Below, piece after piece: positions 1,102 to 15,919 of a stretch of DNA of 64,000 bases (its first letter is position 1; each line of letters begins with the position of its first letter). Origin of the DNA: Hydrogenophaga intermedia (GTDB lineage Bacteria; Pseudomonadota; Gammaproteobacteria; Burkholderiales; Burkholderiaceae_C); NCBI RefSeq assembly GCF_000723405.1, contig NZ_CCAE010000005.1, positions 1-64,000 on the forward strand, in the 5' to 3' direction. The translations under genes were made by a program, and so were the position numbers. The notes beneath the pieces were generated by a model, which did not search any database, was not told the origin of the DNA, and saw only the letters and a program-made list of their open reading frames with translations.

Positions 1102-2196
1102 TCAACGCTCCCAGTCCCTCTCCGGCTTGGCCCCGCGCGCCTTCATCGCCGCCATGTACTGCGTCAGCAGCGGCTTGGCCTGCACGCCGCGGGCTTCGTT
1201 GTTCTTCACCCATTCCTGCGCCAGGTTGGGCAGGCCGTCGATCCACTTGCGGCGCTCGGCGTCGGGCAGCGGCGTCACCGTCACCGGCGGGTTCTGGCCC
1301 TTGCCCAGCTCCACCATGCGGTTCATGGCCATCTGGTGGCGCTGCACCAGGTCTTCACCGTGGCGGCGCGTGTACTCGGCACCGGCCTCGCGCATGGCCT
1401 GCTGTACCTCGGGCGGCAGCTTGGCCCAGCTGTCCTTGTTGATGGCCACGCCACCCGAGAACACCACGCCCATGTTCACCTTGGTCACATAGGGCGCCAC
1501 CTCATAGACCTTGGCCGGCAGGATGCCCGTGGCCAGCGAGACCACGCCCTCGCTCACACCCGTCTGGATGTCGGTGTAGTAGGTGGTGAGCGCGCCGTCC
1601 ACCGGCGTGGCCCCCACGCCGCGCAGCCACAGGCCCAGGATGCCCGGCGCCGAGAGCTTGCGGCCCTTGAGGTCGTCCACCGACTTCACCGGAAACTTCG
1701 TCCAGATGTCGTAGGTGTCGGAGCCCGTGGCGCCCAGGAAGACGATGTTGTACTTGTCCCATTCGGCCTTGAAGGCCGGGTTCTTCTCGATCATCTCCGT
1801 CATCGCGCCCAGCACGATGCGCGGGTCGCTGGTGGTGAAGGGCGTGTGCGCCGCCAACTGCGACAGCGGCATCTTCGCGGGCTCCAGGTAGCTGAACACC
1901 CAGCCGATGTCGGTGATGCCCTGCTCCACGCTGGTGAGCGTGGCGTTGGCCTTGTAGAGCTGACCGCCGAAGGCCTCTTTCCACTCGATCTTGTACTTGC
2001 CCCCGGCGGCGAGGCGCTTGTCCACCTCGGGCATGAACACCTGCTGGATGAAGCCCACCCAGGGAATGGTGGTGGGGTGGCTGGAGGCCACCGTGAGCTT
2101 GATGGTCTGCTGGGCCGAGGCGGCCAGCGGCAAGGCCATGGCCGCCGAGGCGGCCATGGCGATGGCCGTGAGGCGGACGAAGGTCGAACGTTTCAT
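1102..2196 (-). CDS. TRAP transporter substrate-binding protein, DctP family
   Basis: A 364-residue periplasmic binding protein. Residues 1-28 are a clear Sec signal peptide (basic MKRSTFVR, hydrophobic core, ASAQQ cleavage region). The mature part shows DctP-family features: KLTVASSHP at the start, then segments around VDDLKGRKLSAPG and TYYTDIQTGVSEGVV that line the carboxylate pocket in this family. The ATG at 2196 is preceded by AGGAG at good spacing, and longer upstream reading has no support. It is the last gene of the dioxygenase operon. No DctQ or DctM membrane gene lies nearby, so it must use a permease encoded elsewhere. The ligand is probably an organic or aromatic acid. Confidence 0.9.
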   Translation of the reverse strand: MKRSTFVRLTAIAMAASAAMALPLAASAQQTIKLTVASSHPTTIPWVGFIQQVFMPEVDKRLAAGGKYKIEWKEAFGGQLYKANATLTSVEQGITDIGWVFSYLEPAKMPLSQLAAHTPFTTSDPRIVLGAMTEMIEKNPAFKAEWDKYNIVFLGATGSDTYDIWTKFPVKSVDDLKGRKLSAPGILGLWLRGVGATPVDGALTTYYTDIQTGVSEGVVSLATGILPAKVYEVAPYVTKVNMGVVFSGGVAINKDSWAKLPPEVQQAMREAGAEYTRRHGEDLVQRHQMAMNRMVELGKGQNPPVTVTPLPDAERRKWIDGLPNLAQEWVKNNEARGVQAKPLLTQYMAAMKARGAKPERDWER

Positions 2197-2257
2197 GCTT
2201 GTCTCCTGTTGTGAATGTCTGAACGCGAACACGAAAACGAAAACGGCGAGGGAAATC

Positions 2258-3241
2258 TCAATCAACCTGCGCGCCCGACTGGCGCACCAGCGCGGCCCAC
2301 TTGGCCACCTCGCTGCGCGCGAAGGCGTCCATGGCGTCAGGGCCCAGGGGGCGCTGCTCCACGCCTTGCGCGGCCAGCTTGCCGGCCGTCTCGGCCTTGG
2401 CCAGCGTGGCGGCCGTGGCCTGGCGCAGGCGTGCGAGCACCGGGGCCGGCGTGGCGGCCGGCGCGTACAACATGAACCAGGCCACGAGGTCGAAGTCGCT
2501 GCCGGTCTGCTCGGCGATGGTGGGCAGGTCGCGCGCGGCGGCACTGCGTTGCGCGCTGGACGCGCCCAGCGCGCGCAGCTTGCCACCCTGCATGTGCGGC
2601 AGCACGGCGGCCGGGTGGTAGAACATGAAATCGGCGCGGCCGGTCATCACGTCGTTCATGGCCATGCCACCTTCCTTGTAGGGCACGTGCAGCATCTGGC
2701 CGCCCAGGCGGGCCTTGAGCAGTTCACCCGCCAGGTGGCCCGAGGTGCCGTTGCCCGCCGAGGCGAAGGTGGCGCCCTGCCCCTGCGCGGCCTTGGCCTT
2801 GAGGTCGGCCAGGGTCTTCAGCGGCCCATCGGCCGCCACCACCAGGAAGGTCGGCGTGTAGCCCACCAGGGCGATCGGCGCGAAGTCCTTGAGCGGGTCG
2901 TAGCTCAGGTTGCGGAACAGCGTGGCGTTGATGGCGTGCGTGCCCACCGTGCCCATCACGAGTTGGTAGCCATCGGCGGCGCCCTTGGCCACCTGGTTGG
3001 AGCCCACGGTGCCGCCCGCGCCGGCGCGGTTGTCCACCACGATGGACTGGCCCAGCTCGCGGCCCAGGCCCTCGCCCACCACGCGCGAAATGATGTCGGT
3101 GGTGGTGCCGGCACCAAAGGGCACGACGAGGCGGATCGGGCGGTCCGGGTAGGTCTGCGCGGCGGCGGGCAGCGCGATGGCGCCGGCCGCGGCGCCCAAG
3201 GTCAGCAGGGCGTCGCGGCGGGTCAGGGAATGGCGGCTCAT
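2258..3241 (-). CDS. Bug-family (TctC-like) tripartite tricarboxylate receptor
   Basis: A 327-residue periplasmic receptor of the Bug family expanded in Burkholderiales. The N-terminus MSRHSLTRRDALLTLGAAAG has a twin-arginine-like RR motif before the hydrophobic core and an AAAQ-type cleavage site. The mature start YPDRPIRLVVPFGAG and the VDNRAGAGGTVG loop are family hallmarks for carboxylate binding. The ATG overlaps the CoA-transferase stop by four bases (ATGA), so it is translationally coupled to the catabolic genes. No TctA/TctB membrane subunits are adjacent. It probably captures the substrate of the operon. Confidence 0.92.
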   Translation of the reverse strand: MSRHSLTRRDALLTLGAAAGAIALPAAAQTYPDRPIRLVVPFGAGTTTDIISRVVGEGLGRELGQSIVVDNRAGAGGTVGSNQVAKGAADGYQLVMGTVGTHAINATLFRNLSYDPLKDFAPIALVGYTPTFLVVAADGPLKTLADLKAKAAQGQGATFASAGNGTSGHLAGELLKARLGGQMLHVPYKEGGMAMNDVMTGRADFMFYHPAAVLPHMQGGKLRALGASSAQRSAAARDLPTIAEQTGSDFDLVAWFMLYAPAATPAPVLARLRQATAATLAKAETAGKLAAQGVEQRPLGPDAMDAFARSEVAKWAALVRQSGAQVD

Positions 3242-4401
3242 GTGTTGGTCTCCTTCTTGGTGTGTGTCGCGCCGGGCCAGCCCTGGGCGTACAGCGCGTT
3301 GTGCTCGCCCAGTGTGGGCGGCGGGGTCACGTGCAGGCAACGCTGCCCGTCGAAACTGATGGGCGAGCGCACCGTGCGCGAGGGGCCCATCGTCGGGTGG
3401 TTCGTGTCCACGAAGAGCTGCAGGTGCTTCGCCTGCGCGTCCTCGGGCACCTCGTCGGTGCGGTACATGGGCGCGTGCGGCACGTCCTGCGCGAGCAGGC
3501 GGTCGCACCACTCCTGGCGCGTGCGGCGCTGGAAGATGTCGCGCAGGATCACGATGAGCGCGTCCTGGTTCTCGATGCGCGCGAAGCGGTCGCGAAAGCG
3601 CTCGTCCTCGAAGATGTCGGGCTTCTCCATCGCCTGCGCCAGGCCTTGCCAGAACTTCTCGGGCGAGGACATATGCAGCGCGATCCAGCCGCCGCAGGCG
3701 CATTCCAGCACGTAGCTCTGCGACACGCTGGGCCGGCTGTAGGGGCCCATCACCTCGCCCTCGGAGAAGAGGTGGGTGAAGGCGTCCAGGTTGAAGTGGG
3801 CCATGGCCTCGAACATGGACACGTCCACGCGCCGGCCGGCGCCCGTGGCGTGGCGCTCGTGCAGCGCCCCCAGGATGCCGAAGGCCGCGTAGTAGCCGGT
3901 CATGGCGTCGGCGATGGCCGGGCCCACCACCCGCGGGTTGGCCGGGTTCACCAGCAGGCGCAGGTAGCCGCTGGCGGCCTGGGCCACGGTGTCGTAGCTC
4001 GGGCGCGCGGCGGCGGGGCCGTCCTGCCCGAAGCCGCTGATGGCGCAGTAGATGAGGCGCGGGTTGAGTTCGCGCAGGCGCGCCTCGCCGGCCTGGATCT
4101 GCTCGGCAAAGCCCGGGCGGAAGTTCTGGATGTACACATCCGCGCCTTCGATCAGGCGGTCGAAGCTGGCGCGGTCCGCGTCCTTGCGCGTGTCCAGCGC
4201 CACGCTGTGCTTGTTGCGGTTGTAGGTCTGGTAGTGCGGGCTGTACAGGCCGCCCTTGAAGGCGCGGAAGGGGTCGCCCGTGCCGGGCAATTCCACCTTC
4301 ACCACCTCGGCGCCCAGGTCGGCCAGCACCATGGCGGCGGCCGGGCCGGTGATGAAGGTGCCGTGTTCGACCACGCGCAGGCCCTTGAGCACTTGGGTCA
4401 T
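3238..4401 (-). CDS. CaiB/BaiF (class III) CoA-transferase
   Basis: A 387-residue cytoplasmic enzyme of the family III CoA-transferases, which move CoA between carboxylic acids through an aspartyl-CoA anhydride. The N-terminus LKGLRVVEHGTFITGP, the ADLGAEVVKVE motif and the NPRLIYCAISGFGQDGP block are diagnostic. The expected catalytic aspartate is Asp165, in PAIADAMTGYY. Length matches the family. It lies 12 bases after the citrate-synthase-like gene and overlaps the Bug receptor gene, so in this operon it most likely activates the ring-cleavage product or a derivative to its CoA thioester. The donor and substrate cannot be read from sequence. Confidence 0.93.
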   Translation of the reverse strand: MTQVLKGLRVVEHGTFITGPAAAMVLADLGAEVVKVELPGTGDPFRAFKGGLYSPHYQTYNRNKHSVALDTRKDADRASFDRLIEGADVYIQNFRPGFAEQIQAGEARLRELNPRLIYCAISGFGQDGPAAARPSYDTVAQAASGYLRLLVNPANPRVVGPAIADAMTGYYAAFGILGALHERHATGAGRRVDVSMFEAMAHFNLDAFTHLFSEGEVMGPYSRPSVSQSYVLECACGGWIALHMSSPEKFWQGLAQAMEKPDIFEDERFRDRFARIENQDALIVILRDIFQRRTRQEWCDRLLAQDVPHAPMYRTDEVPEDAQAKHLQLFVDTNHPTMGPSRTVRSPISFDGQRCLHVTPPPTLGEHNALYAQGWPGATHTKKETNT

Positions 4402-4413
4402 CGTGCGCCCTCC

Positions 4414-5232
4414 TCAGTCGATCTTCTGCACCGGCACGAAGCCGGCGGGCACGTGGCCGGTGTAGCGCTGCTCCAGCGTGGCCTGGTAGGACAGCGCAAA
4501 GCCGATGGGCTGTTCCAGCTCCTCGCTCATGTGCGCGATGAGCCCGGCGCAGCGCGCCAGCATGGGCACCCCCTTGAGCGCGTTGAGCGGGAAGCCCACG
4601 CCCAGCAGCACGGCGGGAATCGCCGCCGACACATTCAGGCGCAGGTCCTTGCCGATCACCTCGGGCAGCACCTGCTCCACCGCTTCGGCGATCTCCACGT
4701 AGCGCTGGCCGCCACCGGCCTGCTTCGACACGCGAAACAGCGCCGACACGCGCGGGTCGCGCGCCTTGTGCACGGGGTGGCCGTAGCCGGGCACGGCCTG
4801 GCCGCGCGCGCGCCATTCGCCCACCACGGTGCGCGCGGCGGCCTTCAGGTCGCCGCCATGCTGCTCGCTGGCGCGGTGGATTTCATCGAACAGGCGCCCC
4901 GCGGTTTCCGAGGCCCCCAGGATCACCGATCCACAGCCCAGGATGCCCGCCGCCACGGCGCCCTGCAGCGCGTCGGGCGCGGCGGCCAGGGTCATGCGCG
5001 CGGCCTGCACGCTGGGCACCAGGCCATGTTCGGCAATGGCCACCAGGGTGGCGTTGAGCACGGCGCTGGCGGGCGCGTCGGGGCGCTTGCCGGTGAGCAA
5101 CAGGTAGAAGTAGTCGCCGAAGCCGAGCTGGCCGATGAGGTCCTGGCACAGGTCCTCGCCGCGCACGACGATGGTGTCGGGGTTGTGCGCGCAGATGGCC
5201 GACTGCGGCACGGTGGCCTTGCCGATTTTCAA
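4414..5232 (-). CDS. Citrate-synthase-fold enzyme, citryl-CoA lyase-like
   Basis: A 272-residue protein, much shorter than citrate synthase (about 430) and comparable to proteins annotated as citryl-CoA lyase. The two histidine motifs are present: AEHGLVPSVQAARM (His69, matching the DHG motif) and GYGHPVHKARDPR (His152). The third catalytic position, normally Asp in an NVD motif, reads NVSAAIPAVLL, so Ser202 replaces Asp. The loss is confirmed in the codons GTG TCG on the minus strand near 4630. In context it would form or cleave the C-C bond of a CoA thioester downstream of the CoA-transferase. The actual substrate is unknown and may not be citryl-CoA. Confidence 0.8.
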   Translation of the reverse strand: MKIGKATVPQSAICAHNPDTIVVRGEDLCQDLIGQLGFGDYFYLLLTGKRPDAPASAVLNATLVAIAEHGLVPSVQAARMTLAAAPDALQGAVAAGILGCGSVILGASETAGRLFDEIHRASEQHGGDLKAAARTVVGEWRARGQAVPGYGHPVHKARDPRVSALFRVSKQAGGGQRYVEIAEAVEQVLPEVIGKDLRLNVSAAIPAVLLGVGFPLNALKGVPMLARCAGLIAHMSEELEQPIGFALSYQATLEQRYTGHVPAGFVPVQKID

Positions 5233-5257
5233 AAGTCTCTCCGGTGAAAAGGAAGGG

Positions 5258-6154
5258 TCAGCGCGCCGGCACGAGGCGGAAGTCGTACGTGGCGCTGTGG
5301 TACGGCGTGTCCATGCGGCGGCCGTCGGGTGCGGTGCCGGCGGGGTGCTGCTGGAAGGGCACGATGAGGCTGTTGCGCACGCCGAAGACGGCGTCCGAAT
5401 CGAGGTAGGGGCTGTCGGCCACGAAGAGGTGCGTGGTCACCGTCTGGTGGCCGGGTGCGTACACCTTCATGTGGATGTGGCCGGGCCGGTTGGGGTGGCG
5501 GCCCATGCGGCGCAGCATGCGGCCCACGGGGCCGTCGTCGGGCACGGGGTAGAAGCTGGGCTTGATGGACCAGAAGCGGTAGTTCCCCTGCGCGTCGGTG
5601 CGAAACCGCGCGCGCAGGCGCATGCCGGCGTCCTCGCCCATCTGCATGTCGTAGATGCCCTCGCCGTCGCCGGACCACACGTCGAGGCAGCAGTTGGCGA
5701 TGGGCTGGCCCTCGGTGTCGGTGACCTGACCGTGGTAGTACGCGGGCTCGCCGGGCATGTTCTCGCCGATGTCGGCGCCCAGCGCCATCTCGGGCGAGCC
5801 TTCCCAGTAGAACGGACCTTGCACCGTGGCCTCGGTGGGCGTCTGGGCGCCACCGCCGCTTTGCTGGAAGGCACGCGCGGCCTTGATCTGGTTCAACGCC
5901 ACCACCAGCATGGAAATGCCCAGCGTGTCCGACAGCAGGATGAACTCCTGGCGCTTGTCGTCGCACATCTTGCCGGTCTCGGTGAGGAAGAAGATGGTGT
6001 TGATCCATTCCTCCTCGCTCAACTCCACCTCTCGGATGAAGGCGTGGGCGTGTTTCACCAGGGCGCTCATCACCTGCTTGAAGCGCGGGTCCTGGCAGTC
6101 GGCCATGCGGTCGAGCACGGCCTGGGTGATGTCGTTGGCGTCCAGTTGGGCCAT
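5258..6154 (-). CDS. Intradiol ring-cleavage dioxygenase, hydroxyquinol 1,2-dioxygenase-like
   Basis: A 298-residue non-haem Fe(III) dioxygenase with the N-terminal helical dimerisation domain (about residues 1-105) and the beta-sandwich catalytic domain. The four iron ligands are visible: Tyr168 (GEGIYDMQM), Tyr202 (PSFYPVPDDGP), and His226 and His228 (RPGHIHMKVYAPGH). The GIYDMQ motif resembles hydroxyquinol rather than catechol enzymes. It cleaves a catecholic or hydroxyquinol ring between the hydroxyls to a muconate or maleylacetate-type diacid. It is the first gene of a five-gene operon divergent from a LysR gene. No maleylacetate reductase or cycloisomerase gene is adjacent, which is unusual. 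Confidence 0.9.
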   Translation of the reverse strand: MAQLDANDITQAVLDRMADCQDPRFKQVMSALVKHAHAFIREVELSEEEWINTIFFLTETGKMCDDKRQEFILLSDTLGISMLVVALNQIKAARAFQQSGGGAQTPTEATVQGPFYWEGSPEMALGADIGENMPGEPAYYHGQVTDTEGQPIANCCLDVWSGDGEGIYDMQMGEDAGMRLRARFRTDAQGNYRFWSIKPSFYPVPDDGPVGRMLRRMGRHPNRPGHIHMKVYAPGHQTVTTHLFVADSPYLDSDAVFGVRNSLIVPFQQHPAGTAPDGRRMDTPYHSATYDFRLVPAR

Positions 6155-6202
6155 GGGGCTTGTCTCCTGTGGGCGGGTGCCTGTTGTTTTGATTCGCAGC
6201 GC

Positions 6203-6208
6203 AGTCTA
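6203..6208 (-). promoter_or_regulatory. Predicted -10 element of the dioxygenase operon
   Basis: The minus strand reads GCC-TAGACT here, about 49 bases before the dioxygenase ATG. No good -35 hexamer is visible at 16-18 bases, consistent with an activator-dependent promoter. The inferred transcription start is near 6196. Confidence 0.4.
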
Positions 6209-6250
6209 GGCACCCGATGACTGCGACGGAAGTGATGAATTTCGACCGCT

Positions 6251-6271
6251 ATGATCGATCGCATCGATCAT
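6251..6271. promoter_or_regulatory. Perfect inverted repeat, probable LysR operator
   Basis: A 9-bp perfect inverted repeat, ATGATCGAT / ATCGATCAT, separated by CGC, lies in the divergent intergenic region. Its centre (6261) is about 65 bases upstream of the inferred start of the dioxygenase operon, the canonical recognition-site position for LysR-type activators. It is also just before the LysR gene, so it could serve autoregulation too. Confidence 0.6.
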
Positions 6272-6289: not shown

Positions 6290-7177
6290 ATGGAACTGCG
6301 TCACCTGCGCTACTTCGACACCTTGGCCGAGACGCTGAACTTCACGCGCGCGGCCGAGCGGCTGCACGTCACCCAGTCCACGCTGTCGCACCAGATCCGC
6401 CAACTGGAGAACGAACTGGGCCTGGTGCTGTTCGACCGGTCGCACAAGAAGGTGGCCTTGACCGAGGCCGGCGAGTTGCTGCGAAGCCACCTGGTGCCCG
6501 CCCTGCAGCAGATCGACCGCGGCCTCCAGGCCCTGAGCCACCCGGGCGAGGCGCTGTCGGGCGAGCTGCGCATCGCGGCCACGCACAGCTTCAACACGCG
6601 CCTCATCCCGCTGTGTGTGTCGGCCTTCCTGGGCCAGCACCCGAACGTGAAGGTGGGCGTGGAGGAGCTGTCGGCGGAGCACATCGCCAAGCGCCTGTCC
6701 AGCGGGCACCTGGACCTGGGCGTGTCCTACCGGCCGGCCGATCGGCCCGAGCTGTGGTTCGAGCCGCTCTACAACGAGGAGCTGCGCCTGTGCGTGGCGG
6801 CGACGCATCCGCTGGCCAAGCGCCGTCGCGTGCGCCTGGTGGAACTGCACCAGCGTCGCCTGGTGTTGCTGCCCAAGCAATTCAGCACGCGCGGCCTGCT
6901 CGACGAATGCTTCGAAGCGGCGGGCGCGCAGCCACTGGTGGTGGCCGAGCTCAATTCCATCGCCCCCATGATCGAGCTCATCCGCCAGACCGACCTCGCG
7001 GGCATCATCGCCGAGACCGCCTTCACGCCCTCGCCCGAGCTGCGGCTGATTCCGCTGGAAGACCCCTCGCCGATCCGCACGCCGGGGCTGCTGTGGAAGA
7101 AGGGCGTGAACCGCTCCCCCACGGTGAAGCACATGGCTTCGGTGATCCGCCGCGCGGCGAGCGGGCACGCGGGCTGA
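6290..7177 (+). CDS. LysR-family transcriptional regulator of the ring-cleavage operon
   Basis: A 295-residue regulator. Residues 1-60 form the winged helix-turn-helix (MELRHLRYFDTLAETLNFTR, then LHVTQSTLSHQIRQLE), followed by the two-lobed effector-binding domain. The ATG at 6290 is chosen because MELRHLRYF is the conserved LysR start and AAGGAAGG precedes it. The earlier ATG at 6251 lies inside the operator palindrome. It is transcribed divergently from the dioxygenase operon, so it very likely controls that operon in response to an aromatic inducer. Confidence 0.92.
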   Translation: MELRHLRYFDTLAETLNFTRAAERLHVTQSTLSHQIRQLENELGLVLFDRSHKKVALTEAGELLRSHLVPALQQIDRGLQALSHPGEALSGELRIAATHSFNTRLIPLCVSAFLGQHPNVKVGVEELSAEHIAKRLSSGHLDLGVSYRPADRPELWFEPLYNEELRLCVAATHPLAKRRRVRLVELHQRRLVLLPKQFSTRGLLDECFEAAGAQPLVVAELNSIAPMIELIRQTDLAGIIAETAFTPSPELRLIPLEDPSPIRTPGLLWKKGVNRSPTVKHMASVIRRAASGHAG

Positions 7178-11326: not shown

Positions 11327-11830
11327 TCAGCCGTCTTCGGGCTCGGCGCCTGAGTCCTCCGGCACCTGGAGCACGGCCAGCAGGCGGTCGAGCATGGCGT
11401 AGACCTCCGCCACGAATTCAGGGCCCAGGTCGGCCTCAAGCTGGCGGTAGACGTCTTCGAGGTCGCCGCTGACGTCCTTGAACATGCGCATCGCCCGCGG
11501 CGTCAGCGAGACGTGCTGGCGGCGCTGATCGCCTTTCATGCGTTCGCGGCTCACCAGGTCCAGCGCCTCCATGCGGGCCAGCACACCCGCCAGGCTGGGG
11601 CTGGAAATGTGGCAGATGGTGCAGATCTGGCGCGGCTCCAGCGTGCCGTAGACGTCGAGCGCGCGCAGGATGCGGAACTGCTGCTCCGTCAGCCCCGTTT
11701 TCTTGAGCACCGGCCGAAAGCGCGCGATGAGCCCGCCGCGCACCTGCAGCAGCAACAGGGGCAGGTTGCGGCGCGCGCGCGGAGCGGCTGGGGGAACGGG
11801 GGTGGCTGGGGGTGTGCGGGATCGCGGCAA
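11327..11830 (-). CDS. MarR-family regulator, HpaR-like
   Basis: A 167-residue winged-helix repressor. The N-terminal region RNLPLLLLQVRGGLIARFRP followed by GLTEQQFRILRAL closely resembles HpaR, which represses homoprotocatechuate catabolism. The recognition region is ISSPSLAGVLARMEALDLV, with the wing at KGDQRRQHVSLTPRAM. The C-terminus is acidic. As last gene of the Bug-ThDP-aldehyde dehydrogenase operon, four bases after the dehydrogenase stop, it probably autoregulates the operon from the 32-bp palindrome at 15963-15994 and releases on binding an aromatic acid. Confidence 0.87.
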   Translation of the reverse strand: MPRSRTPPATPVPPAAPRARRNLPLLLLQVRGGLIARFRPVLKKTGLTEQQFRILRALDVYGTLEPRQICTICHISSPSLAGVLARMEALDLVSRERMKGDQRRQHVSLTPRAMRMFKDVSGDLEDVYRQLEADLGPEFVAEVYAMLDRLLAVLQVPEDSGAEPEDG

Positions 11831-11834
11831 GGTG

Positions 11835-13181
11835 TCAGAAGGGGTAGGCCTGGGGTTCGGTCTGGATCGTAATCGAGCGCAGATCGGTGAACTCCGCGAT
11901 GGCCGCCTTGCCGCCGAAACGGCCGTACCCGCTGTCCTTGACGCCGCCGAAAGGCAACTGCGGTTCGCTGCGCACCGTGGGCGCGTTGATGTGGCACACG
12001 CCGCAGGCCAGGCGCTGCGCCACCTGCAGGGTGCGGGAGATGTCGCGTCCGAACACGGCGCCGGCCAGGCCGTACTCGGTGTCGTTGGCCACGCGCACGG
12101 CCTCCTCCAGGTCGTTCACCCGCACGATGGCCGCGATGGGGCCGAAGGACTCGTCACCATAGACCTTCATGCCCGGCTTCACGTGGTCCAGCACCAGCGG
12201 CGCGATGCGCGCGCCGTGGCGCCGCAGCGGCACCCGGAGCTTGGCGCCGAGGGCCACCGCGTCGTCCACCATGGCGGCCACCTGCTCGGCGGCGCGTTCG
12301 CTGATGAGCGCGCCCGCCAGCGCGGGCACCTCGCGGGTGGCGAGCCGCTCGGCCTTGTCCGCCAGGGCCTGCGCGAAGCGGTCGGCGATGGACGCTTCCA
12401 CCACGATGCGTTCCGTGGACATGCAGATCTGGCCCTGGTTCATGAAGGCCCCGAAGGCGGCGGCGTTCACGGCGGCATCCACGTCGGCGTCGGCCAGCAC
12501 CACCAGCGGCGACTTGCCGCCCAGCTCCAGCAGGGCCGGCTTGAGGTATTGGCCCGCCAGCGCACCGACGATGCGCCCGGTGCGCGTGGAGCCGGTGAAG
12601 TTGACCCGGCGCACCGCCGGGTGGGCGATCAGCGCTTCCACCACCTGCGGCGCGATGGCCGGGTCGTGCGCAATGACGTTGACCACGCCAGGGGGGAAGC
12701 CCGCGTCATTGAGCAACTCGCCGATGAGGCGGTGGCTGTCGGGGCAGACCTCCGAGGCCTTCATCACCACCACATTGCCACAGGCCAGCGGCATGGCCAG
12801 CGCGCGCAATCCCAGCAGCAGCGGCGCGTTCCACGGCGCGATGCCGAGCACCACGCCCACCGGCACGCGCAGCGTCATGGCCACGCAGCCAGGCTGGTCG
12901 GACGGAATCGTCTCGCCCCCCACCTGCGTGGTGAGCGCGGCCGCCTCGCGCAGCGCGGCAATGCCGCCCTTCACGTTGAACTGCGCCCAGCCCACGGACG
13001 TGGCGGTCTCGGCCACCATGCGCTCGACGAACACGTCGGCACGCGCCTGCAGCAGATCCGCGGCCTTGCCGAGCAGCTCTCGCCGCAAACCCGGGCCGGT
13101 GCGCGACCAGGAGACAAAGGCCTGGGCGGCCGAGTCGACGACGGCGCGCGCGCCCTCCACCGTGTGCCAGTTGTGTGTCAT
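11835..13181 (-). CDS. NAD(P)-dependent aldehyde dehydrogenase
   Basis: A 448-residue enzyme, slightly shorter than the usual 480-500 at its N-terminus. Family motifs are clear: GIAPWNAPLLLGLRALAMPL, NFTGSTRTGRIVG for cofactor binding, LELGGKSPLVVL with the general base Glu, and the nucleophile Cys in NQGQICMSTERI. The IAPWNAP and GQICMST patterns resemble vanillin/benzaldehyde-type dehydrogenases. It sits 13 bases after the ThDP-enzyme gene, so it probably oxidises the aldehyde that the decarboxylase releases to a carboxylate. Confidence 0.9.
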   Translation of the reverse strand: MTHNWHTVEGARAVVDSAAQAFVSWSRTGPGLRRELLGKAADLLQARADVFVERMVAETATSVGWAQFNVKGGIAALREAAALTTQVGGETIPSDQPGCVAMTLRVPVGVVLGIAPWNAPLLLGLRALAMPLACGNVVVMKASEVCPDSHRLIGELLNDAGFPPGVVNVIAHDPAIAPQVVEALIAHPAVRRVNFTGSTRTGRIVGALAGQYLKPALLELGGKSPLVVLADADVDAAVNAAAFGAFMNQGQICMSTERIVVEASIADRFAQALADKAERLATREVPALAGALISERAAEQVAAMVDDAVALGAKLRVPLRRHGARIAPLVLDHVKPGMKVYGDESFGPIAAIVRVNDLEEAVRVANDTEYGLAGAVFGRDISRTLQVAQRLACGVCHINAPTVRSEPQLPFGGVKDSGYGRFGGKAAIAEFTDLRSITIQTEPQAYPF

Positions 13182-13194
13182 GTCGGTAGCTCCT

Positions 13195-14934
13195 TCAAAG
13201 CGGGGCGATGCGCGCGTGCAGCACCGCGCTGCGGCCTTCGTCGAGCGCGCGGATGCAGCGCGCGACGGCGTCGTCGATGTCCTTCGGGTCGCTCACGCGC
13301 TCGCCATGCGCGCCGGCGGCTTCGCCCACGGCGGCGAAGTCCATGTCGCGAGGCAACAGCGAGGCGTATTCGCCGCTGTGAAAGGCGTGGCCCCCGGGGT
13401 ACATGCGCAGGGTCGACTCCTTCACCGCGGCCCAGCCGCTGTTGTCCAGCACCACCGTGAAGATGGGCACGCCATATTCGCGTGCCACCGCGTAGGTGGA
13501 CGTGGGGTTGCTGAAGTAGAAGGTGCCGTCGCCGACGAAGTGCACCACGCGCCGCTGGGGGTGGGCCAGCTTCATGCCCAGCGCCGTGCCGGCCGAAAAG
13601 CCCAGCCCGCCCCCCGGAAGGCCCATCAGCGTGCCCGGCTGTTGGCGCGGCACCTGCTCGAACACGGTCAGCGTGTGGCGGATGCCTTCGTTGAGCACGA
13701 TGTCGTCTTCACCGAGGGCGCGGTGGATGGCAGCGCACAAGTGCGCGGCGTTGATGGCGCCCGGCTCGCCCGGCGCGCGCGCGGCGTCGGCCACGCGCTG
13801 GCCACGCTCGGCGTGCTCGGCGCCCAGCCGCACCAGACGCGCGGCCGCGCGCGCTTCAAAGGCCGGTGTGGCCAGGGCCTTCACCGCTTCGATCAGATCG
13901 GTCAGCAGCAGCTCGCTGTCGCCTTGCAGGCGCAGGTCGGTGGCGAAGCCCCACATCGGCATGTCGCGCTTGAGCGCATCCACGTCGATCTGCGCCCACC
14001 AGGCCTTGGGGTTGACGTTCGTGGTCTTGGGCACCCAGGGCACGTCCACGTCCAGCATCAGGCCAACATCGGCGCGTTCGGCGAACGGGCCGGGCAGGTA
14101 GCCGCCGAAGCAGGGGCTGTCTCGGCGGATGTTCAGGTGCACGCTGTTGAATTCGCACACGCGCATGCCGATCAGCGTGGACAGCGCCTCCACCAGCGCC
14201 GGCACGCGGGGGTTGCGGCCGGCGTAGGCGGTGACCAGCAAGGGGTCTTCTGCCGCCACCAGGCGCTCGGCGATTCGTTGGATGTCGTCGGGCCGGGCGC
14301 CACCCGCTCGCACGGGCTGGTGATGCGCGGCCGTGAACGGGTGCAGCTCGTCCGGCGGGCACGGCGCGGCCAGCACCTCGCGCGGCAGCATCAGGTACAC
14401 GGGGCCGGGTGGGTCGCTCTGCATCACGGCGTGCGCGCGCGCGATCACCTCCTCGGCCATCGACGGCCAGGGCAGCGTGTATTCCCACTTCACGTACGGG
14501 CGCACCACGCTGCCCTGGTCGAAGGGTTCCTGCACGAAATGCACGTAGGTGTCGCGGCCGCCCTCCACGCCGTTGAAGGTGGTGGCCGGCGCGCGGCCCG
14601 CCATCAGCAGGATGGGCACGCGCGCGCGGAACAGGTTGTGCAGCCCCATGGCGGCATTGGCCGTGCCCGCGTCCACGTGCACCAGCACGGCCTGGCCACG
14701 GCCGGTGGCCACCGCGTAGCCGCCGGCCATGTGGATCGCCGTGTTCTCGTGCGGGCACAGCACCAACTCTGGCAAGCGCCGGCCCGCTTCGCGCCAGCGC
14801 GCCATCTCCTCGATGAGGGGCGCGTGGTCGGTGCCGAGGTTGCAGAACAGGTAGTCGATGCCACGGTCCAGCAGGGCCTGGAGCAGGTGGTGCGAGGCGC
14901 TGCGCGCCGTCTCGTGGGGGCTGTCGGGGAGCAT
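13195..14934 (-). CDS. Thiamine diphosphate-dependent enzyme (2-oxoacid decarboxylase / acetolactate synthase-like)
   Basis: A 579-residue ThDP enzyme with the three usual domains. The cofactor-activating glutamate is in CPHENTAIHMAGGYA (Glu about residue 56), and the ThDP/Mg motif runs from VGDGTFYFSNPTS to LDNSGWAAV near residue 480. The N-terminal motif LGTDHAPLIEEM differs from classic acetolactate synthase or benzoylformate decarboxylase. With an aldehyde dehydrogenase and HpaR-like regulator in the same operon, decarboxylation of an (aryl) 2-oxoacid to an aldehyde is the best guess. Carboligation or C-C lyase chemistry cannot be excluded. Confidence 0.85.
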   Translation of the reverse strand: MLPDSPHETARSASHHLLQALLDRGIDYLFCNLGTDHAPLIEEMARWREAGRRLPELVLCPHENTAIHMAGGYAVATGRGQAVLVHVDAGTANAAMGLHNLFRARVPILLMAGRAPATTFNGVEGGRDTYVHFVQEPFDQGSVVRPYVKWEYTLPWPSMAEEVIARAHAVMQSDPPGPVYLMLPREVLAAPCPPDELHPFTAAHHQPVRAGGARPDDIQRIAERLVAAEDPLLVTAYAGRNPRVPALVEALSTLIGMRVCEFNSVHLNIRRDSPCFGGYLPGPFAERADVGLMLDVDVPWVPKTTNVNPKAWWAQIDVDALKRDMPMWGFATDLRLQGDSELLLTDLIEAVKALATPAFEARAAARLVRLGAEHAERGQRVADAARAPGEPGAINAAHLCAAIHRALGEDDIVLNEGIRHTLTVFEQVPRQQPGTLMGLPGGGLGFSAGTALGMKLAHPQRRVVHFVGDGTFYFSNPTSTYAVAREYGVPIFTVVLDNSGWAAVKESTLRMYPGGHAFHSGEYASLLPRDMDFAAVGEAAGAHGERVSDPKDIDDAVARCIRALDEGRSAVLHARIAPL

Positions 14935-14944
14935 GGGTTCCTGG

Positions 14945-15919
14945 TCAGTTGGTCGTGGCGGCCAGGCCGGCGGCGCGCACGGCGGGCGCGAAGGCCTTCT
15001 GCTCGGCCTGAATGCGCTGGCGAATCGCCTCGGGGCCTGCGAAGTCGCTTTCGTGGCCGAGCTTGGCGAAGGCTTCTCGCATGGCCGGCGTGGCCAAGGC
15101 CTTTTCCAGCTCGCCCGACAGGCGCTTGAGCACGCCCGGGGGCGTGCCGGCCGGGGCGTACAACGCCAGCCAGACCTCGTACTCCGTGCCGGGGAAGCCC
15201 GCCTCGGCCAGGGTCGGCACGTCGGGGAGGAAGGGCGAACGCTTCTGCGAGGCAACGGCCAAGGGACGCAGGCCGCCGGACTTGATCTGCCCACTGAGCG
15301 GCGCCAGATCGGCCATCACCATGACCGCACGGCCCGTGACCAGGTCCGAGATCGCTGGCGTGAAGCCGTTGTAGGGCACGTGGATCATCCTGGCGCCGGC
15401 ACTTTGCACCAGCATCTCGGTGCCCACGTGGGCCATGGAGCCCACGCCATTGCTGGCGTAGGCCAGCGAGCCGTCCTTGGTCTTCGGATCGGCGAACAGC
15501 TCCTTCACCGTCTTGTAGGGCTGCGTGCTGGACACGGTGAGGAAGAACGGCAGGCGCGACACCATGCCGACCGGCGCGAAGTCCTTGAGCGGGTCGAACG
15601 CCAGCTTGGCCTGCGTGAGCGGCAGCAGCGTCATGGTGGAGCCACCGGTCAACAGAAGCGTGTAGCCATCGGGCGTGGCGCGCGCCACCGTGGAGGCGCC
15701 GATCACCGTGTTGCCTCCGGGCTTGGCCTCCACGATCACGCTCTGCCCCATCGAATCGCCCAGCGCCTGCGCCACCAGGCGTGCGGCGGCGTCGACACCG
15801 CCCCCGGCCGCATAAGGAATGACGATGCGAATGGTCTTGTTGGGAAAGCTGTCCTGCGCGTGGCCCGCCAGCGTCGCAGCGCACAGCAGCGCGGCGACGG
15901 CCCATCGAACGAGTTTCAT
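14945..15919 (-). CDS. Bug-family (TctC-like) tripartite tricarboxylate receptor
   Basis: A 324-residue periplasmic receptor with a Sec signal peptide (MKLVRWAVAALLCAATLAG, then HAQDS). The mature part begins SFPNKTIRIVIPYAAGGG and has the VEAKPGGNTVIG loop, both family markers. It is the first gene of the ThDP/aldehyde dehydrogenase operon, ten bases before the next gene, and the only transport component in it. It probably captures the 2-oxoacid or aromatic acid that the operon degrades. The ATG at 15919 is used because the signal peptide starts there. Confidence 0.92.
   Translation of the reverse strand: MKLVRWAVAALLCAATLAGHAQDSFPNKTIRIVIPYAAGGGVDAAARLVAQALGDSMGQSVIVEAKPGGNTVIGASTVARATPDGYTLLLTGGSTMTLLPLTQAKLAFDPLKDFAPVGMVSRLPFFLTVSSTQPYKTVKELFADPKTKDGSLAYASNGVGSMAHVGTEMLVQSAGARMIHVPYNGFTPAISDLVTGRAVMVMADLAPLSGQIKSGGLRPLAVASQKRSPFLPDVPTLAEAGFPGTEYEVWLALYAPAGTPPGVLKRLSGELEKALATPAMREAFAKLGHESDFAGPEAIRQRIQAEQKAFAPAVRAAGLAATTN

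Follow-up and report, generated by a model that had tools for sequence, protein, structure and literature searches.

Gene organization of the locus

The window analysed here, by which we mean the whole stretch of 64,000 nucleotides at C5:1–64000 of the 5.29-Mb genome of Hydrogenophaga intermedia, opens with a putative operon for aromatic degradation. Its first 7.2 kb hold a minus-strand row of five genes, encoding an intradiol dioxygenase of the hydroxyquinol 1,2-dioxygenase (HQD) type, referred to as HQD1, a protein with the predicted fold of citrate synthase (CS) that is annotated as citryl-CoA lyase (referred to as the CS-fold enzyme or, in relatives, the lyase), a class III CoA-transferase (CaiB) and the periplasmic receptors TctC and DctP, with a LysR-type regulator diverging from them (Table 1). 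All genes named in a first-pass annotation of this DNA, including the divergent regulator, were recovered where it had placed them, the operon genes being on the minus strand; the pair of carboxylate receptors it had pointed out come from unrelated families. The nearest named relatives of the window are Hydrogenophaga, with a lyase 97% identical in locus L050.

From HQD1 to DctP the successive intergenic gaps measure 25, 12, –4 and 64 bp, sizes that would be compatible with a single transcript. The longest open reading frame (ORF) of the regulator begins at 6251, and the start shared by its relatives (MELRHLRYF) falls at 6290. The resulting 135-bp region between HQD1 and the regulator contains a 9+9 bp inverted repeat that is a candidate LysR box.

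Table 1. Features of the HQD1 operon and its regulator (window coordinates).
Feature	Position	Strand	Basis
HQD1, hydroxyquinol-1,2-dioxygenase-type intradiol dioxygenase, 298 aa	5258..6154	-	PF04444+PF00775; 1tmx E 1.2e-79
CS-fold enzyme annotated as citryl-CoA lyase, 272 aa, TTG start	4414..5232	-	PF00285; NF004868
Class III (CaiB/BaiF) CoA-transferase, 387 aa	3238..4401	-	PF02515; alignment n=74
TctC (Bug) periplasmic binding protein	2258..3241	-	PF03401; 4-bp overlap with CaiB
DctP TRAP-type binding protein, without adjoining membrane subunits	1102..2193	-	PF03480
LysR-type regulator	6290..7177	+	PF00126+PF03466; start kept in relatives
Inverted repeat ATGATCGAT-CGC-ATCGATCAT, candidate LysR box	6251..6271		sequence; T-N11-A scan

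HQD1 and its lyase-linked clade

HQD1 combines a Dioxygenase_N with a Dioxygenase_C domain, and its best solved relative is the hydroxyquinol 1,2-dioxygenase 1tmx, in a family that also includes the 6-chlorohydroxyquinol enzyme 8r2x. Alignment with 1tmx, from which rows L003 and L004 were left out, revealed that HQD1 retains the Tyr, Tyr, His and His positions that we take to be the iron ligands. By our own residue count, the position of Phe108 of 1tmx is a Gln in HQD1 and variable across its clade, and that of Val113 is a Trp in more than 95% of the clade. A fast maximum-likelihood analysis of 133 proteins (rows shorter than 230 aa left out; unlinked HQDs represented by best matches only, from at most 30 + 30 loci, plus the HQD2 copies) placed the 56 lyase-linked HQDs all on one side of one branch (SH-aLRT 98), their sister group being 14 HQDs whose genomes have no linked lyase. 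Neighbouring genes (amidohydrolase NF006056, RutE-like nitroreductase, Dabb, YciI, SnoaL-like and FAD hydroxylase genes) offer hints as to which aromatic compound is the natural substrate, but do not decide the matter.

The genome has a second HQD on C11, 53% identical to HQD1. It lies in a stretch (L008, 7609–13809) with its own LysR gene, a complete TRAP set DctPQM and, by bait, YciI-like and RutE-like nitroreductase genes; the DctP accompanied there by DctQM is about 60% identical to the one in the window.

Conservation of the HQD–lyase–CaiB neighbourhood

Whether dioxygenase, lyase and CoA-transferase are neighbours in other genomes had been named in the first-pass annotation as one check that could refute its proposal, and the trio turned out to be conserved. 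A family-level draw of 399 genomes (lyase threshold E≤1e-60) yielded the lyase in 27 of them, that of the window included, and within flanks of ~1.5 kb these loci had an HQD (at ≥45% identity) in 22/27 cases, CaiB in 23/27 and both in 19/27; at two of the 22 HQD loci (L238, L239) the HQD lay beyond the LysR gene. Among the 80 best named loci, taken from 165 relatives, a same-strand HQD lay no more than 0.6 kb upstream of the lyase in 53, CaiB within 4 kb in 77, and both were present in 50. Of the three loci without CaiB, two (L060 and L062) break off close to the lyase, and the third, L076, encodes a CoA ligase instead. The two samples overlap in six loci, L232 and L230 are the same DNA as L076 and L069, respectively, and were each counted once, and gene calls in relatives rest on baits and ORFs.

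This neighbourhood is far commoner than chance placement. Moreover, its gene order varies, being CaiB–HQD–lyase in five loci (L172 of genome G171, with TctC next, and L234, L236, L240 and L241) and CaiB–lyase–TctC in Bordetella, which argues that the neighbourhood is functional and not simply frozen. The same Burkholderiales operon occurs in a metagenome-assembled genome labelled Akkermansia muciniphila (L064), which groups among the Burkholderiales in the lyase tree; the contig is probably a contaminant.

Active-site residues of the CS-fold enzyme and CaiB

The CS-fold enzyme passes the curated model NF004868 'citryl-CoA lyase' with 336.2 bits against a cut-off of 193, and its predicted fold is also that of the Hydrogenobacter thermophilus citryl-CoA lyase 6hxp and of the C-terminal module of ACLY. 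The position of CS Asp375, which we take to be the catalytic Asp, is nevertheless Ser202 in all 81 sequences aligned, and S, T, N or A in aligned distant relatives, in contrast to the Asp of 6hxp and ACLY. The position of CS His274, whose equivalent is present in the aligned 6hxp, is Ile104 in the window protein (Ile in 79/81 sequences, Val in 2/81), and distant kin carry Ile, Val, Leu or Phe there. His152, His155, Arg161 and Arg227 are conserved, and aligned relatives throughout have a GHPxH motif, with His155 as a new residue, where citryl-CoA lyase and ACLY have GHRxY. The neighbourhoods of the window clade differ as well, being aromatic and beta-oxidation-like. Because equivalents of Asp375 and His274 are absent, the name citryl-CoA lyase is doubtful for the window protein. 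A role for Ser202 as general nucleophile was considered and rejected, as the genome's own paralogues and the proteins of Rhodococcus rhodochrous BX2 and Sagittula have Ala at that position. A second lyase paralogue of the genome is broken at contig ends (the ends of L009 on C51 and of L010 on C101), the fragments being closely similar but not identical.

CaiB matches PF02515 with 342 bits, and its Asp165, presumably the catalytic residue of class III CoA-transferases, is present in more than 97% of the 74 aligned sequences. In L076 (Aquabacterium terrae) a CoA ligase occupies the usual place of CaiB, so that CoA activation of the ring-opened acid, as the first-pass annotation had proposed, is the likely second step. 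The slot behind CaiB or nearby is filled variously across L050–L129, with DctP in 7/80 loci, branched-chain ABC genes in 34/80 and TctC in 56/80; these three uptake systems are unrelated and not mutually exclusive.

Other ring-cleavage and beta-oxidation contexts of the lyase

In most of its contexts the lyase adjoins enzymes that form or process CoA thioesters, with none seen in L207 and L219. In six of 16 plasmid loci, all on Rhizobiales plasmids (L201, L203, L206, L208, L217 and L220), lyase and CaiB stand with a LigB-type extradiol dioxygenase; a seventh locus, L216, has a 27% relative. Like the window operon, these loci have CaiB, TRAP genes (in L201, L208 and L217) and, in the five lyases aligned (L201, L203, L206, L208 and L217), the same residue pattern. 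They differ from it in having a class III extradiol in place of an intradiol dioxygenase and, in L201 and L208, an IclR-type regulator, and some add amidohydrolase NF006056 (L206) or YciI (L208). Dioxygenase baits were unmatched in five of the 16 plasmid loci (L205, L207, L210, L218 and L219). In L216 (6874–12774, Niveispirillum), lyase and CaiB adjoin an apparent protocatechuate 4,5-cleavage (lig) set, assigned by eye; a putative VOC protein in L124/L101 is likewise a tentative assignment. A MetE/UroD-type methyltransferase-like gene is common to L201 (6974–7999, extradiol) and L076 (7025–8050, intradiol) at 75% identity, one idea being a demethylase for methoxylated phenols.

Cupriavidus replicons (L204, L211) have lyase, CoA ligase and another intradiol dioxygenase, followed by a CaiB relative and LeuC, and a B. 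glumae plasmid (L202) has an intradiol dioxygenase, lyase, FAD hydroxylase, CaiB, LeuC and LeuD. The BX2 plasmid (L224) carries HpaB-type hydroxylases, CatC, relatives of catechol dioxygenase and cycloisomerase, PcaD, a CoA ligase and the lyase. CatC and PcaD scored above their cut-offs there, whereas the catechol-dioxygenase relative reached 291 of the required 404 bits and the cycloisomerase relative 201 of 335; baits for PcaI, PcaJ and PcaF were unmatched in 24.7 kb of this plasmid, and none of the three is listed in 49 kb. In common with the window, ring-cleavage genes precede CoA activation and a lyase of the same family (34–37% identity), but the BX2 enzymes are of the catechol type with CatC and PcaD, and an AMP-forming CoA ligase stands in the row, with a CaiB relative 7.6 kb off. 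Finally, beta-oxidation-like sets (acyl-CoA dehydrogenase, MaoC or enoyl hydratase, short-chain dehydrogenase) surround the lyase in Rhodococcus DMU1, Pseudosulfitobacter, Sulfitobacter, Paracoccus and Natrinema, whose plasmid-borne gene (L225, 11983–12750) is a haloarchaeal representative of the clade.

Classical 3-oxoadipate genes

The final steps of ortho-cleavage, CoA transfer and thiolysis, are taught as the work of PcaIJ and PcaF. The first-pass annotation had stated that cycloisomerase, maleylacetate reductase (MAR) and 3-oxoadipyl-CoA thiolase are missing from the transcription unit. Baits for MAR, FAD reductase, PcaI, PcaJ and PcaF found no match in the window (cycloisomerase was not among the baits), but the absence is local. 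MAR-like genes lie on C16 and C97 (73% and 54% identical to the L066 gene), and C8 has PcaI and PcaF above cut-off with a PcaJ-like ORF in between. The C16 stretch (L170, 11510–14825) encodes amidohydrolase-like, 3-hydroxyisobutyrate-dehydrogenase-like and MAR-like genes, a third scattered part of a cluster that is a single supercluster in Polaromonas and Ramlibacter. Longer stretches of relatives contain rows such as PcaI–PcaJ–PcaF–3-hydroxyisobutyrate dehydrogenase–amidohydrolase–TctC–3-hydroxyisobutyrate dehydrogenase–MAR, then a second HQD, then HQD1–lyase–CaiB; the supercluster gene names, like those of PcaJ and FAD reductase generally, come from baits or from reading the sequence.

The 53 loci with both lyase and HQD (up to 18.8 kb) contained no PcaF, PcaI or FAD reductase and ten MAR genes, whereas the 14 sister-HQD loci (12–20 kb around) contained PcaF in 12, PcaI in 5, MAR in 4 and an FAD reductase-like gene in 5; the Fisher value for the PcaF contrast (0/53 versus 12/14) treats related loci as independent and is not taken as proof. 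In two genomes (L229/L253 and L230), MAR, HQD, lyase and CaiB share one operon. A clean exchange of PcaIJF for CaiB and lyase was dropped as an explanation, as PcaF is present nearby or elsewhere in most of the hosts checked.

A proposed CoA-dependent lower branch

With moderate confidence, we read the operon as a lower branch of aromatic ring cleavage that depends on CoA and in which the CS-fold enzyme would act as a retro-Claisen cutter and, with CaiB, do the work of PcaIJ and PcaF. HQD1 would cleave, between two of its hydroxyls, a benzene ring that bears three of them, either hydroxyquinol or a related substituted compound. Directly or after reduction by a MAR encoded elsewhere, this would yield a 3-oxo-dicarboxylic acid, for instance maleylacetate or 3-oxoadipate. 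CaiB would load CoA onto the 3-oxo-acid end, after which the CS-fold enzyme would cut the C2–C3 bond to give acetyl-CoA and a C4 acid, namely succinate or succinyl-CoA from 3-oxoadipyl-CoA, or maleate or fumarate from maleylacetyl-CoA where no reduction takes place. The LysR protein would control the operon, and TctC and DctP would import carboxylate. If maleate is the product, LeuCD relatives, some of which hydrate maleate, would fit contexts of the B. glumae type.

The scheme resembles the hydroxyquinol pathway (hydroxyquinol 1,2-dioxygenase, MAR, PcaIJ and PcaF) in the domains of HQD1, whose sister clade lies mostly beside PcaF, and in a presumed CoA transfer followed by C–C cleavage; it differs in having a class III CaiB and a CS-fold protein instead of the class I PcaIJ and a thiolase, and no reductase in the window operon. 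We propose a retro-Claisen step because the CS-fold protein sits where a 3-oxoacyl-CoA would be cut in the BX2 plasmid, in the MAR–HQD–lyase–CaiB operons and in the beta-oxidation-like sets, and we favour it over a retro-aldol step because in BX2 and the beta-oxidation-like sets lyase relatives occupy the place expected of a thiolase. Of the two cuts offered by the first-pass annotation, this leaves the retro-Claisen as the better candidate, and a textbook retro-aldol cannot be assumed with Asp and His missing. More tentatively, and at less than even confidence, the whole clade (GHPxH...DPR, without CS Asp375 and His274, in proteobacteria, Rhodococcus and a haloarchaeon) may be a non-homologous solution to the thiolase reaction, cleaving 3-oxoacyl-CoA both after ring cleavage of the intradiol or extradiol kind and in beta-oxidation.

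Counter-evidence and rival explanations

Several observations weigh against this proposal. Any acetyl-CoA enolate chemistry must use residues other than the missing Asp375 and His274. PcaF scored above cut-off in 37/40 named genomes and 20/21 family-draw genomes (G560 included), MAR-like genes occurred in 29/40 named genomes, and PcaF lay a few kb beyond the locus in 7/11 longer stretches, which had been picked as MAR-bearing; among 16 HQD-linked named genomes, two lacked a MAR match and one lacked PcaF, that of Ramlibacter terrae, whose locus genes look split. Since PcaF and MAR genes thus lie farther off or elsewhere in most of the genomes checked, the module is an extra branch beside the classical route rather than the sole exit of its host, and it may act on a substrate other than 3-oxoadipate. 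In an order-level draw, the lyase was found in 6/399 genomes, with an HQD alongside in two of the six (G000, G171), and 54/399 genomes had an HQD (threshold E≤1e-60); the distribution of the pair within the order is therefore patchy, and HQD mostly occurs without the lyase. Four further genomes of the genus in the family draw are without the lyase module. CaiB and lyase stood without an HQD directly upstream in 27/80 loci, which also counts against the first-pass reading, and of the 25 genomes with such a lyase that were searched, 13 gave no HQD at E≤1e-25. A thiolase-family gene lies ~12 kb downstream of the Paracoccus lyase, and the PLSDB gene tables are incomplete. Titles and opening abstracts, in a search with most subscription journals outside its coverage, yielded no assay of any family member; nor did any connect either citryl-CoA lyase or CaiB with an operon for ring cleavage.

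HQD1 might instead cleave a vicinal triol, one candidate being 6-hydroxyhydroxyquinol (1,2,3,5-tetrahydroxybenzene), which could come from sources such as S-type lignin and phloroglucinol; we consider this unlikely. The product, 2,4-dioxoadipate, would need no reductase because it has no C=C, and CaiB and the CS-fold enzyme would yield oxaloacetate and acetyl-CoA, the compounds bound by citrate synthase; retention of His152, Arg161 and Arg227 would suit this. The LigB-type dioxygenases beside the same pair speak for it too, as on chemical grounds only vicinal triols would give one product by intradiol and extradiol cuts, although these loci may use a different substrate. The incomplete gene tables of L201, L203, L206 and L208 show no aldehyde dehydrogenase, the HQD family extends to the 6-chlorohydroxyquinol enzyme, the two HQD-linked genomes without MAR match would be accounted for, and the superclusters hold a second HQD with MAR and PcaIJF, so that HQD1 may serve another triol. 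Against this idea, MAR shares an operon with HQD, lyase and CaiB in G560 and G649, and the LeuCD-type genes by the pair in some Burkholderiales loci would be superfluous for oxaloacetate. That CaiB, lyase and TctC form their own module for carboxylate uptake and degradation, with HQD1 merely sharing the regulator, is quite improbable: CaiB–lyase–TctC–LysR sets without HQD do occur in Cupriavidus, Bordetella and Achromobacter, and the 13 HQD-free genomes just mentioned agree with it, but the close upstream HQD in 53/80 loci, the other classes of ring-cleavage dioxygenase adjoining the pair elsewhere, and the at least three changes of HQD linkage on well-supported branches of the lyase tree argue otherwise.

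The chemistry of the CS-fold enzyme might also differ from a retro-Claisen cut. The loss of both enolisation residues and the gain of His155 throughout aligned relatives would suit a hydratase, isomerase or thioesterase acting on a CoA thioester without C–C cleavage; its place in BX2, where a thiolase is expected, and the hydratase and dehydrogenase already present in the beta-oxidation-like sets make this improbable. Rather improbable, too, is a true aldol-type lyase, for which an accessory enzyme would add water to the opened ring, forming a 3-hydroxyacyl-CoA like citryl- or malyl-CoA that the CS-fold enzyme would split in retro-aldol fashion into acetyl-CoA and a 2-oxo acid. The curated name, the fold shared with 6hxp and ACLY, and LeuC and LeuD adjoining the pair in L202, L210, L211, L101 and L124, which could set up the hydroxy acid, point towards it; against it stand the missing Asp375 and His274 equivalents in 81/81 sequences, the lack of a hydratase in the window operon, and the ACL Asp-to-Ala mutants that, according to the PDB titles 6znw and 7rig, have citryl-CoA or substrates bound.

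Other features of the window

At the contig start lie an open-ended hemagglutinin-repeat fragment (PF13332; 2–592) and a 148-aa ORF without Pfam match (589–1035), which are candidates for a contact-dependent-inhibition tail with its partner. Further along, at 11327–15916, a second small group of catabolic genes comprises a MarR regulator, an aldehyde dehydrogenase, a thiamine-diphosphate enzyme and a TctC.

Significance

If the retro-Claisen proposal is true, a conserved alternative to PcaIJ and PcaF, drawn from two unrelated families, would alter the pathways predicted in many Burkholderiales and in some Rhizobiales. It would likewise correct a curated enzyme name over a large family and add a new C–C-cleaving active site to the citrate synthase fold.

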